Source: a virus
Direction: 5' to 3' (one strand)
IMG/VR virus record: IMGVR_UViG_3300031920_000141
Location: 1-21,783 of that record
Length of the DNA: 21,783 nucleotides
Notes under the pieces: generated by a model
What the model was told of the DNA's origin: nothing
Seen by the model: only the letters and a program-made list of their open reading frames with translations
Database searches by the model: none
In this document: positions 1 through 21,671 of the stretch, in pieces
How positions within the stretch are numbered: position 1 is the stretch's first letter
Layout: each line of letters starts with the position of its first letter
Made by a program: the position numbers and the translations under genes

Positions 1-9
1 GTCTGAGTG

Positions 10-30
10 AAAAACAGATAAAGTCTGTCT
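10..30 (-). terminator. Probable Rho-independent terminator closing the late transcript
   Basis: Read on the minus strand, ACAGA (28-24) pairs with UCUGU (18-14) around a CUUUA loop. G-U and A-U pairs can extend the stem to seven pairs, and a run of five U (14-10) follows. It lies about 25 nt after the stop codon of the last minus-strand gene, where the late operon should end. The stem is short and AT-rich, so strength is uncertain. Confidence 0.4.
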
Positions 31-52
31 AGTACCCCCTATATTGCACAAT

Positions 53-349
53 TTAAAACAGTGTTTTTCGTTCAGTTCCAAAATGTGTAGATGTGTTTGA
101 GGTGTTACAATCTTTGATTTTTAATGATGATTCAGCTCTGTTAATCTGTAGGAACATTAAAAGAAAATCATTGAAGCGCTGTGTGTTCTCGTCTGTAGTT
201 ATTTTAATCCACCATTCACCAGTATATTTATCTATCTTCCATATTTTATTGTTTGGTGCGTGTTCATTGAGTACATCAATACCTTTTGAATTGTCTACTT
301 TAAATTTAAATTCAATCACTCCACACCTCACTATCAATAGGATATCCAT
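53..349 (-). CDS. Unknown small protein downstream of HNH
   Basis: I do not recognise this 98-residue protein. It is mostly polar, with an aromatic segment (GEWWIKIT, about residues 44-51) followed by a predicted amphipathic helix; no signal peptide or membrane segment is visible. Its 5' end overlaps the end of the HNH gene, which points to translational coupling. The ATG at 349 gives a 38-bp overlap. A GTG at 319, preceded by GAGG at good distance, gives an 88-residue product and only an 8-bp overlap with the HNH stop, and is an attractive alternative start. The opposite-strand frame over the same DNA looks like a shadow (low complexity, no ribosome binding site). If the genome is circular, this gene lies between HNH and the terminase leader. 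Confidence 0.6.
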   Translation of the reverse strand: MDILLIVRCGVIEFKFKVDNSKGIDVLNEHAPNNKIWKIDKYTGEWWIKITTDENTQRFNDFLLMFLQINRAESSLKIKDCNTSNTSTHFGTERKTLF

Positions 350-641
350 CTGAATCAGCGCCTTGCCAAGGTTTAGGCTTCAATCCTCGCAGTAGTCTAT
401 CATCTACAGCTTTTGTTTTCTTCATGTGGCATCTATGGCATAGAGCCTGTAGGTTAGTCCATTCTAATCTTAAATCATAATCTATCTTAATAGCTATCTT
501 ATGGTCTATCTCAGTAGCAGCTACAACTAACTCTTTTTTAGTACATATCTCACATAGTGGATACTCTAATATATAAGCTGTTCTTATCTTAACCCATGAT
601 GTAGATACATAAAAAGGATTTCTCTCTTTGTTATTACTCAC
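312..641 (-). CDS. Phage HNH endonuclease (packaging-associated type)
   Basis: This 109-residue protein has the compact zinc-bound HNH fold. A C30-x2-C33 knuckle is followed by the catalytic D46-H47 pair (EIDH), N63 in WTNLQ, and the second knuckle C68-x2-C71 followed by H72. The length is normal for free-standing phage HNH proteins such as HK97 gp74. In cos-type siphoviruses these are encoded beside the terminase genes and stimulate specific DNA cleavage by the large subunit; that role is inferred here from family and position. Start is GTG at 641 with AGGAG about 8 nt upstream. The gene has its own AT-rich upstream region, after the terminator at 762-789, so it may be transcribed separately. 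It carries no RuvC or DNA-binding module and is not an IscB- or intron-type homing enzyme. Confidence 0.9.
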   Translation of the reverse strand: MSNNKERNPFYVSTSWVKIRTAYILEYPLCEICTKKELVVAATEIDHKIAIKIDYDLRLEWTNLQALCHRCHMKKTKAVDDRLLRGLKPKPWQGADSDGYPIDSEVWSD

Positions 642-748
642 GCTTATACTCCTAAATTATTTAAGAAGTATAACATAAGTCTATATTATGATATAAAAAA
701 GATAGAACTATTGTTAATAAAAAATCATTCTATATTAGATTTGAAGTA
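642..748 (-). promoter_or_regulatory. AT-rich leader and possible promoter of HNH
   Basis: No gene fits between the RNA terminator (762-789) and the HNH start. Read on the minus strand the segment is very AT-rich and holds a TATACT box about 30 nt before the GTG start, but no convincing -35 box. The ribosome binding site AGGAG precedes GTG 641. A promoter here is inferred from position and the -10-like box only. Confidence 0.3.
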
Positions 749-749
749 G

Positions 750-1152
750 GAAAAATAAGGCATAAGAGGGCTATTGAAAACCCCCTTATAACGCTTATTC
801 ATTCTCCATTGAGTTACTCAGTGAGGTTTCAAAGCTTTTGCAGTTTGAGCCATTACATAGTTATAATGCTGCAAAACATACTAGAACGCCGCGTTGTCGT
901 TTCGGCTCATTCCCAGTGGATATAAATATCCGTACCCAAGTCGTATGATAAAGGTGTGCGATTAGAATACGCACTCAACTAGCCCCATCAGCTCATTTTT
1001 AATTTTACTACTCTATGACCGTTAGTCTCAAGTAGTTCGTGGTTTTTTCTTGCTCATGCCACCACTTATAGGCATATACGATTTTAACCACTTATTTAAA
1101 GTTGTAGGTATTACAACTATCTCGATAATTCTACTTTAATAAAACTTTGCTT
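750..1152 (-). ncRNA. Candidate structured non-coding RNA of about 400 nt
   Basis: No reading frame fills this stretch, unusual in so compact a genome. On the minus strand it holds many complementary segments (forward coordinates): 1096-1106 with 1112-1117/1135-1139 (a stacked hairpin); 1039-1044 with 1086-1091; 1055-1060 with 1071-1076; 1007-1012 with 1031-1036; 956-960 with 970-974; 918-922 with 927-931; 851-855 with 864-868; and an 8-bp perfect stem 836-843 with 869-876. TGAGCC (909-904, minus) can pair with GGCTCA (851-846) inside the loop of the 8-bp stem, forming an H-type pseudoknot. The stretch ends in a strong terminator-like hairpin (762-789), which fixes the strand. It starts directly after the holin stop and ends before HNH. 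It lacks recognisable group I P/Q/R/S elements or a group II domain V, and is not tRNA- or tmRNA-like. Family unknown. Many short pairings occur by chance, so covariation is needed. Confidence 0.5.
751..789 (-). terminator. Rho-independent terminator after the structured RNA
   Basis: On the minus strand AUAAGGGGG (789-781) pairs with CCCUCUUAU (770-762): nine base pairs including one G-U, with a 10-nt loop. GCCUUAUUUUU follows. The U-rich tail lies only on the minus-strand 3' side. It separates the holin/RNA transcript from HNH. Confidence 0.6.
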
Positions 1153-1530
1153 TTACTTTATCTTATCTTTAAATGAGTTAATAAACCCACCGCCAAAGTA
1201 CCACGCTACTATAGTAAGCATTATCCAGCCAAGCTCAAAGGTAGCTACAAGCTCTAAATACTGCTTTAACTGCTCATTAGTTCCTAGTGACTGAATAATG
1301 ACACCAACCCAAAAAGCAAAGATAAAATTAAATGTAAATCCGAAAGCTAGATATCTCTGGGCACGTTTAAAAGGCTCATATAATGGCAACATCTTTAATT
1401 TAGTAGATACTGCCAACTGGTGCGCTGTTGCTTTCTCTTCATCTGAGTAGTACAAAGCATCACCAGTGTTTATAACTGCATCTACAGCCTTATTTGCTGT
1501 ATCACCATTAAATAAGCTTAAAAAACTCAT
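1153..1530 (-). CDS. Holin, three-TM gene-transfer-agent type
   Basis: This 125-residue protein begins with a soluble amphipathic part containing a Lys/Glu/Ala-rich helix (residues 1-55). Hydrophobic segments follow at about residues 60-82 (LAFGFTFNFIFAFWVGVIIQ) and 97-117 (FELGWIMLTIVAWYFGGGFI), with a charged tail ending in KDKIK. The layout and the Y-E-P-F-KRAQR stretch before the first segment resemble the family named holin of 3TMs, for gene-transfer release. By family it would permeabilise the inner membrane at lysis and release the endolysin. It is the last protein gene before the structured RNA, four bases after the preceding gene's stop. The M15 peptidase it would serve lies 9 kb upstream in the same operon direction. 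Confidence 0.75.
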   Translation of the reverse strand: MSFLSLFNGDTANKAVDAVINTGDALYYSDEEKATAHQLAVSTKLKMLPLYEPFKRAQRYLAFGFTFNFIFAFWVGVIIQSLGTNEQLKQYLELVATFELGWIMLTIVAWYFGGGFINSFKDKIK

Positions 1531-1534
1531 AATA

Positions 1535-1783
1535 TCACTCTCCTAAACTTTTATTACAATGATTATTTTCAAGCTTACCAAGAAAATAACACACTTTATC
1601 ATCAAACCATGTTGATGTATTAGCTAACTGTTTACGCCCTATATTAGAGCTTATTGTCTCATCCTGTGAACCATTCCAAATAATAACATTAAAAAGCTGG
1701 TCTAAAGCAAGTAAAAATCTAAACCAGCGTTTACGCTTTGAAACATCATTATCAAACTTTTCGTATAAATCATACTTAGTCAT
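1535..1783 (-). CDS. Conserved small phage protein (LDQLxN...DETIS family)
   Basis: The 82-residue product holds LALDQLFNVIIWNG (about residues 25-38), then SQDETISSNIGRKQ and a late NHC motif. From memory, this pattern marks a widespread family of small phage proteins of unknown function, often beside lysis or tail-end genes. The first helix is hydrophobic, so peripheral membrane association is possible; there is no clear signal peptide. The ATG overlaps the preceding gene's stop (ATGA), and the holin starts five bases after its own stop, so all three are co-translated. A lysis accessory role is inferred from position only. Confidence 0.65.
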   Translation of the reverse strand: MTKYDLYEKFDNDVSKRKRWFRFLLALDQLFNVIIWNGSQDETISSNIGRKQLANTSTWFDDKVCYFLGKLENNHCNKSLGE

Positions 1784-2124
1784 GCAAACACCCCTATCTT
1801 TTGAGGCATCATATAGCTCTGTTCCACTCCATTATCATCTATATATGTAATTGGTACATCATAAGCATATACACTCTTATATAGTCCATGTGACACATCA
1901 TCAGCAAACATTTCCTCATAAGTTCCTAGATTTGTAAGTGATGAAAACTTTGCTAAATCAAGCTTATTATCTCTAACCAAAGAGAGAGTTTTAACACCAT
2001 TATTTTTAATAGGTGTAAGAGTGTTACCATGTGTATAATTCCCGTCTTCGTCTACCATTTCATTATCAATTAACTCTTTTTTTAGTTGCTCTATATCTGA
2101 GCAGTAAAATACTTTATCTATCAT
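1780..2124 (-). CDS. Unknown protein behind the receptor-binding gene
   Basis: I do not recognise this 114-residue, acidic, soluble-looking protein. The N-terminus (MIDKVFYCSDIEQLKKEL) looks like strand-helix. The middle has a tyrosine-rich part (GLYKSVYAYDVPITYIDDNGVEQ), and it ends in MMPQKIGVFA. Genes in this slot, directly after a tail fibre, are often fibre chaperones or small virion proteins, but nothing here proves it. AAAAAGGGA lies shortly before the ATG, and its stop overlaps the next ATG. Confidence 0.6.
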   Translation of the reverse strand: MIDKVFYCSDIEQLKKELIDNEMVDEDGNYTHGNTLTPIKNNGVKTLSLVRDNKLDLAKFSSLTNLGTYEEMFADDVSHGLYKSVYAYDVPITYIDDNGVEQSYMMPQKIGVFA

Positions 2125-2222
2125 TTTTTTCCCTTTTTGATGTTATATATACCAGCTAAATATCTATCCATTCTATCTTCTGCTTCTTGGCTAAAACTAT
2201 GCAGGTGACATCTCAGTGGCAC
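2121..2222 (-). CDS. Possible 33-aa mini-gene between fibre and next gene
   Basis: A short frame opens at GTG 2222 inside the 3' end of the fibre gene (or at ATG 2171, 16 residues). It ends in TGA overlapping the next gene's ATG, the same ATGA coupling used throughout this operon. The product is hydrophilic, with a helix-like AEDRMDRYLAGIYNIKKGKK tail. It could be a real coupling peptide, or a frameshifted remnant of an older, longer fibre C-terminus. It is short, so chance is a serious alternative. Confidence 0.25.
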   Translation of the reverse strand: MPLRCHLHSFSQEAEDRMDRYLAGIYNIKKGKK

Positions 2223-3639
2223 TTAAGCTCTTATCGTAAATGAGATAGTTTTTCAGATGACCATATATAAACTGACTACCACCATTTCTATTACCTAGAT
2301 AAAACACTCCATTAGCAGCTATTCCAGTAGAAGTTGCTGCAAATCCTTGAGATGCAGCGATACCATTAACATACGGAACTGCTAACACTTTAGAACTTGA
2401 TATTGCTAGTCTATTAAATACAGTATTATCAATTGAAGTTACTAAAGAACCCCCCTTTCTAAATGCTACATTAGTACCATATGTATAAATATCGTATAGT
2501 CCACTAATACCCTCTAAGTCAAATAAGTTACCTGCCCCTATATTTCTTGTTTTAGCATCAATAATAACAGTACTTGCTTCTTCGTTTCGTGGTGCATTTC
2601 CAGCCCATTTAACACTACACACATCCGAACCCCTAGTAACAGCAGCAGTAGTAGTAGGTATATAACTTGAAGCAAATGGTAGCTGTTCCAATTGACTACC
2701 CCAAATCTCTATCTCATCACCATCAGTAAGCATCCTTATATAATGCCTACCAGCAGTAGAATCAGCAATATTACTAACATTAATCCTTACCCATTCAGTT
2801 CCTATTTCATCACCAAAATATAAATAAATACCATTAGTGTCTACTATTCCTATAGCTCCATTGCCTTTTAGTCTTTTAACATAAAATGAATTTGTATAGC
2901 TTTCTCCAACTATTATACTTCTAACTTGTGTAATGGTACTTGTACCAGCGAGTTTTATAACTTTTGTAGAGTTTGATATTCCATCTGGTGCTTTTCCGCC
3001 AATTGATAATGAAACATTCTGTGCAGCCCAATTACCAGTAGTATAATCACCACTATCTAGTGCTGAATTAGTACTACCACCCTCAACCAAAAGCCCATCA
3101 CTCTCAAACCTAGCTTCATCTATAGCAGCATACTGCAAAACACCATTTCTATCTATATATGAAGCTGTAGTAGCTCTAGTAAACGTAACATCTGTAGCTG
3201 GATTTGCACTTTTACGAGGTACTAAACTACCTAATAATGGTAAATCTAAAAGTAAATGTTTACCAAGTCCAAGCTCTTTAACTTTAGTTATCATCTGAAA
3301 TTCAGCAGTAATAGCCCAAATATCCTTAGTTAATTGAACTAATGAATAAACACTAGCAAATCTAAACTCTTTTACCTCTTCATCACCCTCTATTAACCAT
3401 GCAGCATTAAAAACACTTACACCATTAGATAGAGTTTGATAGTAAAAATCCTTAAAAGCTAACATCTGCTCATTAGAACTACATACAAATCTAAACTTTA
3501 CCATGTAATCATTACAGAAAGTTTTTCTTTGTCTAGTAGCATAATCAAAATTACTTCTAATGAAAGATGAACCGCCTTGCATTTGGTTACCTACAAGTTG
3601 CGTTTTTGGTAAAGTATCAGGATAGTCAATTAGTGCCAT
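2197..3639 (-). CDS. Receptor-binding tail protein with LamG-like C-terminus
   Basis: This 480-residue protein has two parts. Residues 1-115 look like a tail-attachment domain of the siphovirus tail-tip type (IDYPDTLPKTQLVGNQM... through AITAEFQM). Residues about 135-200 hold the module common in phage fibres: FTRATTASYIDRNGVL, then DEARFESDGLLVEGGSTN. The rest is beta-rich. Its last 140 residues (from about STVIIDAKTRNIG to LKNYLIYDKSLSATEM) match a concanavalin/LamG-like carbohydrate-binding sandwich, ending in the usual LSxxEM. It probably recognises a surface glycan. It follows the J-like tail tip, as expected for an adhesin. AAGGAATTAAA precedes the ATG. Fusing tip attachment and LamG adhesin in one chain makes it a likely host-range determinant. 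Confidence 0.8.
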   Translation of the reverse strand: MALIDYPDTLPKTQLVGNQMQGGSSFIRSNFDYATRQRKTFCNDYMVKFRFVCSSNEQMLAFKDFYYQTLSNGVSVFNAAWLIEGDEEVKEFRFASVYSLVQLTKDIWAITAEFQMITKVKELGLGKHLLLDLPLLGSLVPRKSANPATDVTFTRATTASYIDRNGVLQYAAIDEARFESDGLLVEGGSTNSALDSGDYTTGNWAAQNVSLSIGGKAPDGISNSTKVIKLAGTSTITQVRSIIVGESYTNSFYVKRLKGNGAIGIVDTNGIYLYFGDEIGTEWVRINVSNIADSTAGRHYIRMLTDGDEIEIWGSQLEQLPFASSYIPTTTAAVTRGSDVCSVKWAGNAPRNEEASTVIIDAKTRNIGAGNLFDLEGISGLYDIYTYGTNVAFRKGGSLVTSIDNTVFNRLAISSSKVLAVPYVNGIAASQGFAATSTGIAANGVFYLGNRNGGSQFIYGHLKNYLIYDKSLSATEMSPA

Positions 3640-3648
3640 TTTAATTCC

Positions 3649-6222
3649 TTAGTATATAGTTTCATCATAATTCGTAGCTGTAATAGTAATCTCATTACCA
3701 CTAGGCTTAATACTTATAACAATATAATCTTTCACAAAAGTGTTTGATATTCCCATAGAGAAATTAGTCTTATCAAACTCCTCACCATCATAAAGCCATG
3801 TCGGAACAGTTCCTAAAATCTCTATAGTATTAGAATCAACTACTACCATAGAAAGTATATCACTAACACTAGCATCTTCTTTTCTAAAGATAATGCTATC
3901 ATATATCCCATCAGATAAATCATAAGAGCAAGTTAATGTTATATAATTTCCATTTATATAAGATATTTGACCACCTATACCCCACTCAGGTAAATTATGA
4001 CTAATAGCAATTCTATCTAAAAACTCAGGAATTAATCCCTGTATATCTGTTTTAAACTCTACAGATTTTCTTCTAGCTTTATCTTGTTTATAAAGATAAG
4101 TAGCCATTTCTAAAGCTTTAACACCATCAGTACAGCCCCATAACTCAATTTCCTCAGGGAAAATACCATCTGTAGGATAAATAACTGTAGCCTCTTTAAA
4201 CTCATCACTATCACGATAAATAATCTTAATACTATCAGTCTCATCCTGTTCCGTAAAAAGATAAGATATCTTTAAGCTGTCTTTTATAATATTTGTTTCA
4301 TTATATAAAGCAGTCCTTATAGGCTTAATAGCATCATGTTTTAACTTTATCTCTGAACCACTAGGATATACATTATATCTGTTACTTTTAGCTGTCATTT
4401 GCATAGCATCATATAGAGTCATTTTAGAATCTATAGCACCATTAACGCTAGTATCAAGCGTATCAATTAGATTTAAATCTGCAATAGGTAAACGCCCCCC
4501 GTAAACATCATTACTATACAAATCCGTAATAACACTTTTTACATCTGATAATAAATCACTTCTAGTAACCCATGCGTTTATTGCAAACTGACCTATAGAG
4601 CTAATAGCATTAGATGCTCTTATCTTACACCAAAGCAGCGTGATATTATTAAGCGGCTCATAGTCTGGGTCTGCGTGTATAAACTTGATTGATTTTATAT
4701 AAGTCTTATCCATGCTTTGAACATTTGATGGCTCTGCTGTTATTCTTTTTATCTTTATGTTTGCTGTGCTTTGTGGCACTGTGTAGATATGTTTATATGT
4801 TGCTCTAATCGCTGAGTTATCTCTAGCTATCGTTTGAATAACCTCGTCTGTTGGAGTACCTGCCTCAGTGTAGTTGATGTTGAATTGAGTCGTTCTATCT
4901 TCTAAAGCACCAGTTGTAGAGTTTGAATTATAAACACCTGCTGGGTAGTGGTAGTCTATTTCAAAGCCTATGTGTGATTTGTCGTATAAGTATGCTCCGT
5001 AACCTGTTTCAAATTCAGCAGTATATAGTTTACCTCTTATGTAAACATCTCCAGAAACAGATAATAAAGGGCTAGGGCTAGTAAACGTATATCTTGCATC
5101 AAGTGGATACCCAGTAACGAGAAGATGTCTTTTTACTGTATAGTCAATAACACCTACTCTAAAGCAAGTTGAAATTGCTAGATTATATAAAATAACAACA
5201 TTTTCACCGCTAGTCTCCACAAATGTATCTTCTCCATCTTTTGTTGTGATAGCATAGCTTCCATCTGTTGCAATAACCCCATCTGGCTCAGTAACAAACG
5301 TATGAGTCTGAACAGTTACTACATTCGCTGTAACAGAATCAACTGTATAAATTCCATTGTTTGAAACTGTATTGCTGATTGTAATTGTTGACCCATTACT
5401 TAATGAACTTAAATCAGGCTCATCGCCATTTGCATAAGGATAAAAAGTAATAGTTGAGTTTTCAAATCTCATTACCATTGATTGATTTTGAGGTGTACCT
5501 CTTATCTCTAAGTTTTCAACGTCAGGAATAGTTTTAATTAGTTGGTGATAATTTGAGTCATTTACTTTAGTGTTAAAAAGTGCAGGTGTTTTAAAGTCAT
5601 CATGTTCTAGTTTTTCATATCTAAAGTAATCACTTTGAATTTCTTGTACGTTTGTATCGCTGATTAATAAATCATCTATTGCATATTTACCTTGACCGAT
5701 ACACATCAACTGATAAAGATACTCTTCATTATTCTCATATCTATAATATGGCGGTGCTATTAGTGCTGGATATGTTCTAACTTTTCCATATATTATAGGT
5801 ATAACTTGACCTACTTTAGCCTCGTTTTGTTGAGAGTTTAAAGAGTAAACACTAGAGGCTTGACCAGCGGAATTTCTACTAGCAAGTGATGTTTGCATAT
5901 TAGGGATTTTAGGCTTAAATATTTGACCTATTATATAAGATACAGCAGCAGATATAAATAAATTCGCTATAAATGTTACTACAGAACCACCAACAACACC
6001 AACCGCTAAAGCTGGTCTAAACATTATGATAATGATATCATCATCTTTTAGCTCAATATCATAATCATCTAGCACTATTTTTTTTTCATTTACATATATA
6101 TCACATGGTTTATCAAATCCATTTGGATATTTCTCTAACAAATAATCTATTAATCTATCATAGCTTATTTCTTCTACTGTCCTATCACCAATCTTAAAGA
6201 TATTAGATGTTACAAATGTCAT
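3649..6222 (-). CDS. Tail tip protein, gpI-like N-terminus fused to gpJ-like body
   Basis: In this 857-residue protein the first 70 residues form a small alpha-beta domain ending in DDDIIIIMFRP. A long hydrophobic stretch follows (about 72-103, ALAVGVVGG...YIIGQIF), as in lambda gpI-type tail assembly proteins. From about residue 120 (SSVYSLNSQQNEAKVGQVIPIIYGKVRTYP, GQGKYAIDDLLISDT) it shows the host-specificity/tip attachment (lambda gpJ, Phage-tail_3) signature. The rest is beta-rich, ending with baseplate-hub-like domains. The tip caps the tail tube and passes the receptor signal. Its start overlaps the NlpC gene stop (ATGA). It is shorter than lambda J (over 1100 aa) and probably lacks the terminal binding domains, which may be supplied by the next gene. 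Confidence 0.85.
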   Translation of the reverse strand: MTFVTSNIFKIGDRTVEEISYDRLIDYLLEKYPNGFDKPCDIYVNEKKIVLDDYDIELKDDDIIIIMFRPALAVGVVGGSVVTFIANLFISAAVSYIIGQIFKPKIPNMQTSLASRNSAGQASSVYSLNSQQNEAKVGQVIPIIYGKVRTYPALIAPPYYRYENNEEYLYQLMCIGQGKYAIDDLLISDTNVQEIQSDYFRYEKLEHDDFKTPALFNTKVNDSNYHQLIKTIPDVENLEIRGTPQNQSMVMRFENSTITFYPYANGDEPDLSSLSNGSTITISNTVSNNGIYTVDSVTANVVTVQTHTFVTEPDGVIATDGSYAITTKDGEDTFVETSGENVVILYNLAISTCFRVGVIDYTVKRHLLVTGYPLDARYTFTSPSPLLSVSGDVYIRGKLYTAEFETGYGAYLYDKSHIGFEIDYHYPAGVYNSNSTTGALEDRTTQFNINYTEAGTPTDEVIQTIARDNSAIRATYKHIYTVPQSTANIKIKRITAEPSNVQSMDKTYIKSIKFIHADPDYEPLNNITLLWCKIRASNAISSIGQFAINAWVTRSDLLSDVKSVITDLYSNDVYGGRLPIADLNLIDTLDTSVNGAIDSKMTLYDAMQMTAKSNRYNVYPSGSEIKLKHDAIKPIRTALYNETNIIKDSLKISYLFTEQDETDSIKIIYRDSDEFKEATVIYPTDGIFPEEIELWGCTDGVKALEMATYLYKQDKARRKSVEFKTDIQGLIPEFLDRIAISHNLPEWGIGGQISYINGNYITLTCSYDLSDGIYDSIIFRKEDASVSDILSMVVVDSNTIEILGTVPTWLYDGEEFDKTNFSMGISNTFVKDYIVISIKPSGNEITITATNYDETIY

Positions 6223-7074: not shown

Positions 7075-8781
7075 TTAAGCCTTACTTAAATTATATCTTG
7101 ATTCTAAAGCACCGCCTAAAGTACCAGTGCCGCGCCTTATATCATTAGTTATTTTACTGATAATAATCTCTATTTGCCCCTCACTATCTTCATTTACTCC
7201 AACATCCACACCAGCATTATTAATTACATTTACATTAACCGCGGTAACTCCACCTGTTGATGTTTCTCCATTTGGTATAATATTTGCACCGCGTGGAAGA
7301 TTAACAATTTCAGGACCATCCTCACCAACTAAAAAAGAACTGCCATTTTTTATAATACCACCTTGAGCACCAGCACCGCCTACTGTAACAGTACCAGCGG
7401 AAGCTGTACCAGTTGTAACATTAAAACCTAATCCTTTAAGTGCAGCAGCAACCGCCACTTGAATAAATAGAGTCTCTATAAGTTTAGCAATTACATCTTT
7501 TAGTATATTTTGAAAAACATCACCAAAACTTGTAGCACCATCCATAGCCTGACGAAACGCCCCAGTTATTCCGCTTGATATTGTAGTGTTCATGCTGCTT
7601 ACAAGTGATTTTGCTGTAGTTGTTTTATTTGTAAGATTTGTATAGTAGGCATCAGCAGCAGCGCCTACCTCACTCCATAATGTAGTTTGATTTGAGATAT
7701 TATCATTTATTCTATTTTGGTCACTTATTATTTTTTCAGAGTCCAAGCCTGTAAAACTTGTTTCTAAAATTCTCTTTAGTGATAAACTAGCTTCACTCGT
7801 TCCCATTATAGCAGCTATCCACGCATCACTATTGCTTATGCTCTGAGCCATAGCTGCATTATAACGCTCTAAAGCCTCTGATTTATCTCTACCCTCTATA
7901 CCATTAAAAAGATTTATAGCAGCAGCTAAAAGCTCATAACCAGCTATCGCGGTGCTTATACTTGTAGTAAGTATCTCAAAACCTCTACCAGCACTATAAA
8001 CTACTTGCTTAGTAATATCTAATGATTTACTAAACACGTTTATCTTTCCAGTGCCTTTGTTTAAATCTTCTACAAGTTGAGTAAGCGATACAGATAAACC
8101 TACTGTAATCCCTTTCCAAACTGTATCCATAATTTTACTTGATATATTCCACGCATCACTAGAGCGCTCTATAGCTTTGATATAATCACCGCTTATTATA
8201 AGCCCTAATTTTTCAGCTTTTGCAGCAGTATCATCTAAGCCTTTTGAGCCTTTTGAGAGCATATTAACCATAGCTACACCCTCAGAGTCAAAGAGCTTCA
8301 TTGAGAGCCTTACTCTATCACTCTGACTTGTAACATCTGCCATGCTATCCGCCACACGCTTTAACATTTCATCAGGCGTAAGCTTTGCTAACTCTTCAGC
8401 ACTTATATTTAACTCATTCAGTGCGCCTACAGCTTCACCAGTTCCACGCGCTGCCTCAGAAACACGCCTAGTCATTCTTTGGATAGCCATATCTAAAGTG
8501 TTTGTAGATATACCAGCCTCTTCAGCTCCAAGATGTAAACCCTGTAAAGCTTCAGCAGTTATACCTAACTTAGATGATGTCTTACCTATCTTATTAAGTC
8601 CAGCAGCAGTAGCATTAATCTTACCAATCATAGCACCACTCACAAAAATAGCAGCAAATGTTCCTACAGTTCTAGTCATATTAGTTATAGATTTTTTGAC
8701 TGTTTTTTCAGCTCTATTCATACCCTTAACTAGCTTAGCTGTATTAGCTAATATATCAATCTCTATGCTACCTACTGCCAT
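7075..8781 (-). CDS. Tail tape measure protein
   Basis: The 568-residue protein starts MAVGSIEIDILANTAKLVKGMNRAEKTVKKS, a usual tape-measure opening with many helices. Hydrophobic patches follow at about residues 36-52 (TVGTFAAIFVSGAMIG) and near 433-455 (FIQVAVAAALKGLGF). The C-terminal motif FLVGEDGPEIVNLPRGANIIPNG is diagnostic of this family. It sets tail length and may form a channel at infection. At about 0.15 nm per residue it predicts a tail near 85 nm, short for a siphophage. It overlaps the preceding gene by 14 bp, so translation is probably coupled. There is no lytic domain inside it. Confidence 0.92.
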   Translation of the reverse strand: MAVGSIEIDILANTAKLVKGMNRAEKTVKKSITNMTRTVGTFAAIFVSGAMIGKINATAAGLNKIGKTSSKLGITAEALQGLHLGAEEAGISTNTLDMAIQRMTRRVSEAARGTGEAVGALNELNISAEELAKLTPDEMLKRVADSMADVTSQSDRVRLSMKLFDSEGVAMVNMLSKGSKGLDDTAAKAEKLGLIISGDYIKAIERSSDAWNISSKIMDTVWKGITVGLSVSLTQLVEDLNKGTGKINVFSKSLDITKQVVYSAGRGFEILTTSISTAIAGYELLAAAINLFNGIEGRDKSEALERYNAAMAQSISNSDAWIAAIMGTSEASLSLKRILETSFTGLDSEKIISDQNRINDNISNQTTLWSEVGAAADAYYTNLTNKTTTAKSLVSSMNTTISSGITGAFRQAMDGATSFGDVFQNILKDVIAKLIETLFIQVAVAAALKGLGFNVTTGTASAGTVTVGGAGAQGGIIKNGSSFLVGEDGPEIVNLPRGANIIPNGETSTGGVTAVNVNVINNAGVDVGVNEDSEGQIEIIISKITNDIRRGTGTLGGALESRYNLSKA

Positions 8782-9100
8782 CTTTAAACCCTCTCATAAA
8801 ATTCATTAGCCCATCATTCAGGCGCGTTTGTTTTATCTCTTTTTTTGTCTCTTCATCTATAGAGATAAGAAAATCTAAAGCCTCTCTACGTTCTTTAGAT
8901 TTAGACTTTCTTAACTCTAAGTTAAATATTAGTGCTGAAAGTTGAGCTATCATCATCTCATTTCTCTCAACACCAAAAGGCTCTATTTTGCTATATTCAA
9001 GCCATTGTATAAATTCATTATATGGCATTTCGTCAATCTCAGCTAGACTCTTATTGAGTTCTCTAGCTAATCTAAAACGAAACTTATCCATATATGACAT
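8768..9100 (-). CDS. Tail assembly protein, lambda gpT-like
   Basis: This is 110 residues: an N-terminal helix FRFRLARELNKSLAEIDEMPYNEFIQWLEY followed by KIEPFGVERNEMMIAQLSALIFN. The order (RLA-L...S-EF-W--Y...EPFG--R-----A) is the minor tail T / DUF4035-type pattern. Such proteins act with the preceding G-like chaperone to load tube subunits on the tape measure. Unlike lambda, it has its own ATG (9100), with GGAG nine bases upstream inside the end of the G-like gene, so it is likely translated independently rather than only as a frameshift fusion. Confidence 0.8.
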   Translation of the reverse strand: MSYMDKFRFRLARELNKSLAEIDEMPYNEFIQWLEYSKIEPFGVERNEMMIAQLSALIFNLELRKSKSKERREALDFLISIDEETKKEIKQTRLNDGLMNFMRGFKDGSR

Positions 9101-9101
9101 A

Positions 9102-9332
9102 CTATAAAGCTCCAGCCCACTCTAAAACTTCTGCAAGTTCTACATTTGTAATCTCATCTAAAAACTCATCATCTTTACCAGTAATAAGCTTGAACAGTTG
9201 ACATCCACCCTCAAACTCATCCGCTTTAATAGCTCTCATCACGCCTACTTTAACAGTGATTTCACTTATTTTTGTAGCTGTTACACTCTCACCATTAAGC
9301 TTAAATACTTTTGTTTTTCTATTCGCCATCAT
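9102..9332 (-). CDS. Tail assembly chaperone, G-like
   Basis: The 76-residue protein lies between tail tube and gpT-like genes, where the lambda gpG-type chaperone is always encoded. Its sequence (TATKISEITVKVGVMRAIKADEFEGGCQLFKLITGKDDEFLDEIT, ending EWAGAL) has the look of short tail assembly chaperones: a beta hairpin followed by helices, with a conserved Leu/Asp/Glu pattern. It is predicted to bind the tape measure transiently and be absent from mature virions. Start ATG-ATG at 9332 follows AAGGGTAAATG-like spacing. Confidence 0.75.
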   Translation of the reverse strand: MMANRKTKVFKLNGESVTATKISEITVKVGVMRAIKADEFEGGCQLFKLITGKDDEFLDEITNVELAEVLEWAGAL

Positions 9333-16226: not shown

Positions 16227-16853
16227 TTAATTGCTTACACACTCTTTTACAAACTCACTTAGCATATAAATCTCCGTTCTAGCCTTGCTATCACTACCAC
16301 CTACAACACTCCCACCATTTGCATAACTTTTTTCATAAATTACACGCCTATGTATCGTAGGTGCGATTTTATATCCAAGCTCTCTAAGATTTCCAAAGAA
16401 ACTCTCTCCAGTTATATTTTTCAATCTTGTATCTATTCTATTTGGTACTACTACAAGATTTATATTATCATTGTCTAGTAGTTTTTTGATTCTATCTGTT
16501 TTATCCATTAGAGATATAAACGCATCTACCTCAATAGGACTCATAGAAGTTGGTATCAAAACTACATCACTCACGCTCATTAAAGCCTGAGTAGATACTA
16601 AATCATAACCACCAGTATCAAAGATTAAAAAACTATCTTTATCCTGTACTATGTTTGATAGTTCTTTTAACTCAGGATTAAAATAGCTTTTAACATTTGC
16701 ATGAGCCGCCCACTTATGAGCAGCACCCTGCGCCTCATCTAAATCAATAATCTTTACATCTAAACCCTCATGCACCAACTGAGCCGCCAAATTAACAGCA
16801 ATAGTAGTCTTACCGACACCACCTTTTATAAGGTTAATTACAGATATTATCAT
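16227..16853 (-). CDS. parA: ParA-type partition ATPase
   Basis: This 208-residue protein is a small ParA/MinD-like ATPase. Its deviant Walker A is INLIKGGVGKTTIAVNLAAQL (signature K-G-G-V-G-K-T-T at about 11-18), with IIDLDEAQG at Walker A' (36-44) and LIFDTGGYD at Walker B. Length and lack of an N-terminal HTH place it with the short ParF type. ParF works with a small ribbon-helix-helix centromere-binding partner; a candidate is encoded at 17950-18159. The start overlaps the end of the preceding gene by 20 bp. It would segregate low-copy plasmid-like DNA, or bind DNA for another purpose. No parS-like repeat cluster was found apart from the palindromes at 18807-18872. Confidence 0.88.
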   Translation of the reverse strand: MIISVINLIKGGVGKTTIAVNLAAQLVHEGLDVKIIDLDEAQGAAHKWAAHANVKSYFNPELKELSNIVQDKDSFLIFDTGGYDLVSTQALMSVSDVVLIPTSMSPIEVDAFISLMDKTDRIKKLLDNDNINLVVVPNRIDTRLKNITGESFFGNLRELGYKIAPTIHRRVIYEKSYANGGSVVGGSDSKARTEIYMLSEFVKECVSN

Positions 16854-17184
16854 TTTTTATCTCCAAATCATCTATTAAAATTTCATCAATATTTAATTTT
16901 TTACAAATATCTATAAAACTTTTATTGCTTATATTATGCCTAATTAAATGATTAAACCCTCTCTCTAATAATACATGAGTAATATTAGAAAATAATATTT
17001 TAAGATTTCTTTTATGCGCCTCTCCATAATGGTTAGTGCCATTATTTATAATATTACATAATTGCCTATAAGTGATTCCGTATTGTGTTCTTAAAAAAAA
17101 TTTAGTAAGATTGTTTTCTGAAGCCATCATCTCTATTGTTTTAATAAATTTTAAAATAATTTTTCTATTTGCTACCTTATTCAT
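16834..17184 (-). CDS. Possible DNA-binding protein coupled to parA
   Basis: This is about 116 residues. Its middle, TKFFLRTQYGITYRQLCNIINNGTNHYGEAHKRNLKILFSNI, looks like a helix-turn-helix of the XRE kind (Tyr-Gly-Ile-x-x-x-Gln-Leu in the recognition area), but I cannot assign a family. The ATG at 17184, behind AAAGGAAAAAG, fits better than the upstream ATG at 17205, which would add seven basic residues. It overlaps the previous gene's stop by 8 bp and parA by 20 bp. It could regulate the island or act as ParB-like partner. Confidence 0.6.
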   Translation of the reverse strand: MNKVANRKIILKFIKTIEMMASENNLTKFFLRTQYGITYRQLCNIINNGTNHYGEAHKRNLKILFSNITHVLLERGFNHLIRHNISNKSFIDICKKLNIDEILIDDLEIKNDNICN

Positions 17185-18954: not shown

Positions 18955-19128
18955 ATGTTAAATAAAGATGCAAAAATAATCATTTACAATCTGAAAGTAG
19001 AAAAACAGTTAAGAGATAGATTCTTAGCTATAGCTAAACACCTAGAATCAGATGGTGCTAAAGAAGTAAGAAAGTTTATGAAAAAATATGTTTCAGACAA
19101 TGCAAATTTGGCGCTGCATATAGAATAA
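18955..19128 (+). CDS. 57-aa ribbon-helix-helix-like regulator
   Basis: This plus-strand protein of 57 residues begins MLNKDAKIIIYNLKVEKQLR. A short strand (KIIIYNLKV), then the helix EKQLRDRFLAIAKHLE, then the helix AKEVRKFMKKYV give the order strand-helix-helix of Arc/CopG-type repressors. Its TAA shares one base with the next ATG (TAATG), so both are translated from one message. It has a near-perfect promoter and an AAAAAGG ribosome binding site. Candidate ligand of the 18-bp palindrome upstream. Too short for automatic callers, but well supported. Confidence 0.6.
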   Translation: MLNKDAKIIIYNLKVEKQLRDRFLAIAKHLESDGAKEVRKFMKKYVSDNANLALHIE

Positions 19129-19463
19129 TGAATAAGCTACATAAGAGACTTGATGAGTTAAAGCAGCATAAACGCTTTGATGAGTGTATAGAATACACAC
19201 AATACATAAGTTCTCTCAATAAGAAAGCTCCTAACATCCTAATACATCCTAGAAAAGTAACACAATTTGATGATGGAACTGCTCACGTTTTAGGTGCTTT
19301 TTATGAGAAGAACTTCAGCTATGATTTCCAACTAAGCAGCTCTAAAGTAAAACGAATAAAAAACGATAAATATACCAATGAAGATTTAAACGATTTAGAA
19401 GATGATTTAAATATGCTAGATAACAACCCTGACTATAATCAAGATATAGAATATCCTTTTTAA
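19128..19463 (+). CDS. Unknown protein co-translated with regulator
   Basis: The 111-residue protein has a Lys/Glu/His-rich helical N-terminus (NKLHKRLDELKQHKRFDECIEY), a beta-like middle (TAHVLGAFYEKNFSYDFQLSSSKV), and a very acidic C-terminus (NEDLNDLEDDLNMLDNN). I recognise no family; it is not RelE- or PIN-like by motif. It follows the 57-aa regulator with TAATG coupling and converges with terL, overlapping its stop by 4 bp. Cargo, anti-defence or toxin-like functions are all possible. Confidence 0.6.
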   Translation: MNKLHKRLDELKQHKRFDECIEYTQYISSLNKKAPNILIHPRKVTQFDDGTAHVLGAFYEKNFSYDFQLSSSKVKRIKNDKYTNEDLNDLEDDLNMLDNNPDYNQDIEYPF

Positions 19464-21040
19464 ATAAACATAATTTCACTCGTAACGCTAACCGCTTCCA
19501 CTTGATGGCATCTAGCAGCCATAGCTAAAGCTACACACCCATCTATTCGACCATGAGATTTTTTCTTATCAAGTTTCTTACCTCCAGCTGGGTCTATAAC
19601 TATCACACTATTTGCTACATTCCAAGTCAACAAAGGATTACCATCATGCCATAGTTTGCGCTCATAGATATACTCTTCCAAAGCGTTAACCGCTGGACTC
19701 ATATCTTTAAAGCCCTGTCCGTATGGTTCTACTGGTAGATGCTCTCCAAGTTCTGATAAACATCTTTCAATCTCATAATATTTCCATCTATCATAATAAA
19801 TCATCTGCATATCAAATACTTCACAAATCTCTAAGAGTGCTTTTGTCATGTATAGCCAGTCAGTTGTTACAGATGGCGTAGTGAGTAAAAAGCCTTTTTT
19901 CTTCCAGTCCATATAGTTAACACCATCACGCTCACCACGTTCAAACAATCCCTCTTGAGCACTCCAAAAATAACTTACATTATATAGAGTATCATCATGC
20001 CCCTCTACTATAAGTTGCAAACTACATAAATCATTTCTACCACCTGACAAATCAAGTCCAGCATAAGCCTTGCATCCTTTTAAATCATTTATATCATATT
20101 CAGTTTTACAGCTTAACCAAGTATCTCTAGTCATAAAGATACTCTCTGAGCTGTATCTTTGATTTGCGATTAATTGTCTAAATGTAGCCATAGACGTTGG
20201 AAGATACTTTGCTTTTCTTAATTCCTTTTCTATCGCTCTTTTTAATGTTGGTATCTCTTCCATAGATGGATTTGATAATATCCAGTTCTCACTATCAGTT
20301 ACATCTAACTCCTCAGGTATAGAATAGATATGACCTACAAAACTATCATCCTCAGTCTCATCATCCTCATCATTTATCTTCATAGCGTAATCTACTTTTT
20401 TAGAAAACGGGTGTGAGTGGTCAGGCGACTGAGTAGAGAGAGAAATAATTAATGGTTCTTTTTGTGCTCCTACGGATGTAGCTAATGCCTCAAATAAATA
20501 GCCGCCCTTTTCTTTTGTCCAGTTACCAAACTCATCAGCGATAGCCAAATAAGCATTTAATCCCATAGCAGTGTTTCCATCTGCTGCAATAGCTTTGATT
20601 TCCATTCCAGTTTCAATGTGTTTTATCTGTTTTTTACTCTCTACTATTTTAAATCTAGTTACTAAATCACCATCATATTCTATAAACTTTTTTATAACAT
20701 TAAACATAATTCCAGCCTGTTCACGCGTACCAGCAGCTAATATGATTTGTGCTTCTTTTTGTTGTAAGTAAGGAATAATAGTAAAACATAATGTAATAGC
20801 AGCGATAAACTCAGTTTTTCCATTCTTACGCGCAATAGTTAAAAGTGCCTCGCTCACAACTCTAGTTCTATCATCAGCTCTAAACTTTGTGAATATTGCA
20901 TAAATAAATTTACGTTGCCACTTAGCAAGTTTAAAAGGCTTACCAACATAAGAACCACTTACAAGTTTAAAGCTCTCTATGGTTTCACATATTATTTTTG
21001 CTAAATTATCATTGATTATTATATCTTTAGAATCACTCAA
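19460..21040 (-). CDS. terL: Terminase large subunit
   Basis: This is 526 residues, HK97 type (Terminase_1). The ATPase half has a Walker A variant LTIARKNGKTE (67-77), Walker B AIADEF (166-171) and coupling motif STQ (202-204). The nuclease half has D330 in YAGLDLSGG, D417 in MIYYDRW and D500 in GRIDGCVALAMAA, the three RNase H-like acidic residues. It powers packaging and cuts concatemers. Start is TTG at 21040, as no ATG fits without removing the conserved KPFKLAKWQ region. It is in the same frame as terS, separated only by TAA-GCT. Its end meets the plus-strand 111-aa gene. Confidence 0.95.
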   Translation of the reverse strand: MSDSKDIIINDNLAKIICETIESFKLVSGSYVGKPFKLAKWQRKFIYAIFTKFRADDRTRVVSEALLTIARKNGKTEFIAAITLCFTIIPYLQQKEAQIILAAGTREQAGIMFNVIKKFIEYDGDLVTRFKIVESKKQIKHIETGMEIKAIAADGNTAMGLNAYLAIADEFGNWTKEKGGYLFEALATSVGAQKEPLIISLSTQSPDHSHPFSKKVDYAMKINDEDDETEDDSFVGHIYSIPEELDVTDSENWILSNPSMEEIPTLKRAIEKELRKAKYLPTSMATFRQLIANQRYSSESIFMTRDTWLSCKTEYDINDLKGCKAYAGLDLSGGRNDLCSLQLIVEGHDDTLYNVSYFWSAQEGLFERGERDGVNYMDWKKKGFLLTTPSVTTDWLYMTKALLEICEVFDMQMIYYDRWKYYEIERCLSELGEHLPVEPYGQGFKDMSPAVNALEEYIYERKLWHDGNPLLTWNVANSVIVIDPAGGKKLDKKKSHGRIDGCVALAMAARCHQVEAVSVTSEIMFI

Positions 21041-21043
21041 AGC

Positions 21044-21457
21044 TTAATCTTTCCATATCTTCTTATGAGTAATTCCATCACGCTCACCAGCTTTAACCTC
21101 TCTACCAACATCTTCAGGACTATCCTGTCTAGTAGTTCCAGCAGCGCGGCGTTGTTGCGGATTAATTCTAAGTGATGAACCTACGCGCGTTAAACATTTA
21201 ACTTTAGTATCTATGAGTCTTGATGTTTTTTCATACATTTTATTTTTTTCTGCTGCTGGACTTCCAGCAAGTGCCAAAGCTGCATATAATATATTTAATT
21301 CTTTTAAAGTTTTAGCGTATATTTCAAGTAGCGGAACATCCGCCATATTAAAATATGATGCTGTATAAGATTTTACTATCATTTCAAAGTATGTTATTTC
21401 ATCATCACTTTCTAAACTTATCGGTTTTAAATGTTCAAGCTCTATTACAGCACTCAT
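21044..21457 (-). CDS. terS: Terminase small subunit, P27 type
   Basis: The 137-residue protein has a helical core (YFEMIVKSYTASYFNMADVPLLEIYAKTLKELNILYAAL), an oligomerisation helix region and the typical GSSLRINPQQRR end of the central domain, followed by a polar linker. P27-type small terminases recognise the packaging site and regulate the large subunit. AGAGG is seven bases upstream of ATG 21457. The upstream repeats may be its own binding site. Confidence 0.85.
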   Translation of the reverse strand: MSAVIELEHLKPISLESDDEITYFEMIVKSYTASYFNMADVPLLEIYAKTLKELNILYAALALAGSPAAEKNKMYEKTSRLIDTKVKCLTRVGSSLRINPQQRRAAGTTRQDSPEDVGREVKAGERDGITHKKIWKD

Positions 21458-21520
21458 GGTATTCCTCTCAATTTCACGCGGCGTATATTATCTATTATAC
21501 TTTACACTATAACCGCAAAG
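21458..21520 (-). promoter_or_regulatory. Late promoter before terS
   Basis: Reading the minus strand, TATAAT lies at 21499-21494, about 37-42 bases before the terS ATG, with AGAGG as ribosome binding site. TTGCGG is only 13 bases upstream of the -10 box, too close for a standard -35, so this may be a weak or activated promoter. It overlaps the first CGCGGCGTAT repeat, so regulation by a repeat-binding protein is possible. Confidence 0.4.
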
Positions 21521-21671
21521 CGAAATTTTTATTTGTTAAATTATAACTTTAAGGTGATTATAACATAATATTTTATAAAGAAAAAATAAAGATGTTGCGC
21601 GGCGTATTAAACTTCATCTACTTTAACATAACAATGCGAAGCAAGAAAATTTTTTTTTGAAAATACACTTT
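21477..21671. repeat. Degenerate direct repeat in terS leader (CGCGGCGTAT units)
   Basis: Two copies 121 bp apart start with the identical 10-mer CGCGGCGTAT (21477-21486 and 21598-21607). In both, ACTTTA follows at +22, then a GCAAAGC/GCGAAGC element and an A-run/T-run. GC-rich 10-mers are very rare by chance in such AT-rich DNA. The spaced sites and A/T tracts, next to terS and near HNH on a circle, suggest a packaging (cosB-like) or regulatory site. Confidence 0.5.

Follow-up and report, generated by a model that had tools for sequence, protein, structure and literature searches.

Does the largest gene-free interval in the late half of a compact phage genome encode a structured RNA of its own, or is it the untranslated end of an operon? 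The window analysed here (G000) is a virus record of 21,783 bases, with 33% GC. It is the late half (head, tail, lysis) of an HK97-type siphophage, and its ORFs lie almost all on the minus strand, the late genes being read from 21457 down to 53. The gene that we call terS, named from its position only (21044–21457), matched no Pfam or PHROG family. It is followed by an HK97/HK022-type large terminase (19460–21040, minus strand) and, between terminase and lysis end, by the portal, capsid and tail genes on the same strand; a LamG-containing tail protein is encoded at 2197–3639. The gap under study has as its upstream neighbour a holin-like small membrane protein (1153–1530, minus strand, PHROG 9646), whose relative in Marinomonas phage P12026 adjoins a putative amidase. 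Its downstream neighbour is an HNH endonuclease of 109 aa from the small phage HNH families (312–641, minus strand), and an orphan ORF lies at 53–349. The phage is poorly sampled: the closest terminases (IMG/VR, GTDB genomes) share ~39% identity along most of their length, and the closest tail protein, 58% identical, lies on a contig that stops short of the corresponding region.

Two ORFs between the large terminase and a small-gene cluster, 18955–19128 and 19128–19463, run on the plus strand, opposite to all others. The run of small genes that separates terminase and portal includes one for a ParA-type ATPase (16227–16853, minus strand), whose plasmid matches include Campylobacter, Helicobacter and Piscirickettsia at ~28–34% identity; given this ATPase, the phage is possibly a phage-plasmid.

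The interval between the holin-like and HNH genes (642–1152, ~510 bases) is the largest gap in the window and, as originally predicted, contains no ORF of at least 40 aa. Its GC content is 0.37 to 0.43 in 750–1000, whereas the remaining gaps, not counting a left-end piece of 52 nt, have 0.17 to 0.29. Structured RNAs tend to occupy long GC-rich gaps of AT-rich genomes (PMC6429828), so that a GC-rich gap in this AT-rich phage mildly favours either an RNA or a decayed gene. The coding-like GC of the gene-free stretch would fit a remnant of a decayed gene or of an inserted element. We consider such a remnant highly unlikely, because six-frame pieces gave no convincing match in related loci or PHROGs (best PHROG E 0.03 for pieces of at least 35 aa from 642–1152), no repeats or DGR-like template were found (no direct repeat of at least 30 nt in 1–4200, no reverse transcriptase noticed among the window proteins), and no intron was matched in Rfam.

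A terminator had been predicted at the 3′ end, and we find it present and strong. A hairpin of 12 pairs with a 6-nt loop (790–761, minus strand; z −4.46 for 755–800) is directly followed by the T-run CCTTATTTTT at 760–751, and the combination of a GC-containing hairpin, a U-run and same-strand genes upstream identifies an intrinsic (Rho-independent) terminator. From the terminator to the HNH start, the sequence is AT-rich (642–750, minus strand, 20% GC) and includes a promoter-like match at 717–688; this match and the other promoter-like sites of the region occur at chance frequency. Since the gap sits among minus-strand late genes and its terminator is strong and correctly oriented, we read it as the 3′ end of the late operon, left untranslated, closed by a terminator and possibly harbouring an orphan structured RNA. 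To the operon-end interpretation we give about an even chance of being correct.

We evaluated the fold of the region as a whole and in blocks. The whole of 740–1160 (421 nt) has a z of −3.7 versus shuffles, a value that is due to the terminator (755–800) and to a 5′ block (1000–1122). Minus its terminator (811–1155), the region has a z of −2.15. The 400-nt minus-strand windows of the genome (102 of 107 covered) have a mean of −0.91 and an SD of 1.36, and this fold lies within that background and in the range of the phage’s coding windows. The 5′ block, situated on the minus strand just 3′ of the holin-like stop codon, forms three successive hairpins (z −3.78, MFE structure equal to the centroid) and is the only block besides the terminator to fold better than shuffles; the middle segment (940–1010) is shuffle-like, with a z of 0.0. 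A z below −3 was found for 17 of 578 windows of 150 nt, none of these 17 coming from the gap region.

Outside the gap, the late operon folds most significantly at 8801–9200 (minus strand; z −6.0, 400 nt), in coding sequence around the genes 8768–9100 and 9102–9332. Tail-assembly frameshift signals occur in this kind of region in many siphophages. A second strong fold (16401–17000, minus strand; z −4.4 for 16601–17000) spans the junction of the ParA gene and its upstream gene.

The main structural argument of the original prediction was a pseudoknot in a different block (830–945, minus strand), which folds no better than shuffles (z −0.58). Its 8-bp stem (836–843/869–876) is an exact match, and the two pseudoknot halves, GGCTCA at 851–846 and TGAGCC at 909–904, are indeed present on the minus strand, but the pairing is at chance level: similar combinations of stem and pseudoknot arise in 9% of shuffles and in 21% of 81 further 403-nt windows taken from this phage. 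Perfect stems of at least 6 bp number 7, a count that 8% of shuffles and 28% of the other windows also reach. A structured orphan RNA is possible, with its best support at 1000–1122, not at the pseudoknot block. Such an orphan would be a non-coding late RNA, either a transcript of its own or a product cleaved from the operon 3′ end, whose three-hairpin domain and terminator function in trans or as a scaffold. The length of the gap and its GC content, relatively high for a phage with 33% GC, argue for it, as do the folds of the 5′ block and of the whole region and the possession of a terminator. With the 5′ block chosen post hoc, the pseudoknot block unstructured beyond chance, promoter-like sites only at chance level and no relative in any collection searched, we regard it as tentative and rather unlikely.

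These searches for relatives covered RNA families, DNA homologues and structure models. At the gathering score, a search of the window with Rfam returned no match; the region is hence no known intron, riboswitch, HEARO, GOLLD or ROOL, in keeping with the earlier statement that features of known RNAs are lacking. At E 10 on 640–1200, three weak matches to unrelated families were obtained. Neither tRNA nor tmRNA was found in the window, which is a fragment of the phage. The new phage RNA family that had been proposed gained no member from DNA comparison with phages, and no DNA relative of the region was present in plasmids, ~165 related loci, kin records or 369 gammaproteobacterial genomes. Loci gathered by their holin-like, tail, terminase and HNH genes gave no match with blastn or nhmmer, nor did two single-sequence structure models (R1 and R2, for two blocks) match in 1.37 Mb of related loci. 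Two weak matches of 19–20 nt in kin records, one of them in G006 at the end of a portal-like gene, are at chance level and were rejected, as were IMG/VR pattern matches to AATGAGCCGAAACGAC, to the pseudoknot halves with a flexible gap and to the third hairpin of the 5′ block, which are chance matches that lie, essentially all of them, within coding sequence.

One relative, L020, whose tail protein is 41% identical, carries the corresponding interval; after its tail genes, the holin-like gene is followed immediately by another ORF, and an RNA like that of the gap is absent there. In Marinomonas phage P12026, too, the next gene immediately follows the holin-like relative. Because no relatives were found, no RNA family can be claimed, and the analysis gave no evidence for the suggested functions in packaging, lysis timing or defence. 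The region is an orphan in the collections searched, from which very near records may be missing, so that failing to find it there does not argue strongly that nature lacks it elsewhere.

The gap also shares a short motif with the terS area. No 8-mer of the window is more over-represented than the GC-rich CGCGGCGT, which has 4 copies versus 0.02 expected. One copy lies in the gap (886–893, minus strand); the other three are plus-strand copies, one inside terS (21145–21152) and two shortly upstream of it (21477–21484 and 21598–21605). At two sites the motif is quasi-palindromic, of the form ACGC-S-GCGT. CGCGGCGT is possibly a packaging or regulatory DNA site, or an RNA pairing site. As a candidate protein-binding site for the terminase/HNH packaging machinery or for a late regulator, it might explain why the segment is kept free of genes. 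A precedent is provided by HK97, whose small terminase recognises one specific 15-bp site close to cos and whose HNH protein gp74 stimulates cos cleavage (PMC11331095). However, the HK97 site bears no resemblance to CGCGGCGT, which is a repeat here, and the repeat is not present in any related low-GC locus. As the motif would, moreover, account for 8 of the ~400 nt, we judge a DNA element to be decidedly unlikely as the explanation of the gap.

Pairing with the terS mRNA offers a further role for the same sequence. Within the gap RNA, ACGCGGCGU is exactly complementary over 9 nt to ACGCCGCGU, which precedes the terS start codon by 19 to 27 nt and lies just upstream of the likely ribosome-binding site, and it is nearly complementary to two further sites. 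With −17.6 kcal/mol, this 9-bp pairing is the best of all start regions; it was equalled at terS by 0/60 shuffled RNAs and at some start region by 3/60. The gap RNA might accordingly act as an antisense RNA that lowers late terS translation. We consider this extremely improbable: the pairing was found post hoc, is not extended past 9 bp and involves a site that is partly paired within the gap RNA itself, and the repeat serves equally well as a DNA motif. Elsewhere in the window, the gap RNA pairs most strongly with the mRNA at 17063–17076 (14 bp), a chance-level match that 29% of shuffles attain.

Considering all evidence, the feature is most likely ordinary, and an operon-end terminator preceded by a long untranslated segment is the safest statement. 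The gap itself, its terminator and the good fold of 1000–1122 are observed, and the operon-end reading draws further support from a fold beyond the terminator that falls in the range of coding windows, from the lack of any protein or RNA relative in the searches and from L020, which lacks such an RNA. Against it count the GC of 750–1000, far above that of other gaps, the better than expected folding of 1000–1122 and the length of ~360 nt, which is more than one would expect of a 3′ UTR alone in so compact a phage. We infer that the segment is transcribed and where its transcription starts. Late transcription through the tail and lysis genes would pass the holin-like stop codon at 1153 and continue for another ~360 nt of untranslated sequence, whose RNA would form the three hairpins in its initial portion, before the transcript is released at the intrinsic terminator (790–761). 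The segment would thereby punctuate the operon and probably shield the 3′ end of the late mRNA. It would presumably also insulate the HNH gene by keeping late transcription out of it, and the AT-rich stretch ahead of that gene may hold its own promoter.

It is plausible that a discrete RNA is made from the minus strand and ends at a terminator of its own. A lineage-specific version of it, a terminator-ended structured RNA of ~400 nt with a three-hairpin 5′ domain, without a relative in Rfam or public phage collections, that is made late and exerts an effect in trans (on the translation of terS via CGCGGCGU, for instance), appears unlikely. A gap that is just an operon end would be of little consequence. 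A discrete RNA, should one be made, would represent an unclassified phage RNA encoded between the lysis and HNH genes of an HK97-type lineage that is thinly sampled, and its complementarity to terS would then connect an RNA with DNA packaging in a testable way.

The candidate was compared with known systems. GOLLD and ROOL are large multi-hairpin RNA genes of phages and prophages with unknown functions (PMC12286853). The candidate resembles them as a multi-hairpin, gene-free phage segment; however, GOLLD often exceeds 800 nt versus ~400 nt here, both families often lie near tRNA islands whereas this window, a fragment of the phage, holds no tRNA, and the covariance models of GOLLD, ROOL and OLE are unmatched, with no supported pseudoknot. 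The catalytic cores of group I and group II introns were not found with the Rfam models. With HEARO/OMEGA RNAs the region shares a gene-free position immediately upstream of an HNH gene, but the HNH protein has 109 aa, in contrast to the long IscB type, and Rfam gave no match. Although longer and GC-richer than the other gaps of this phage, the region resembles an operon-end terminator with a long 3′ UTR in lying after the last lysis-type gene, on the right strand, with a strong hairpin and a T-run.
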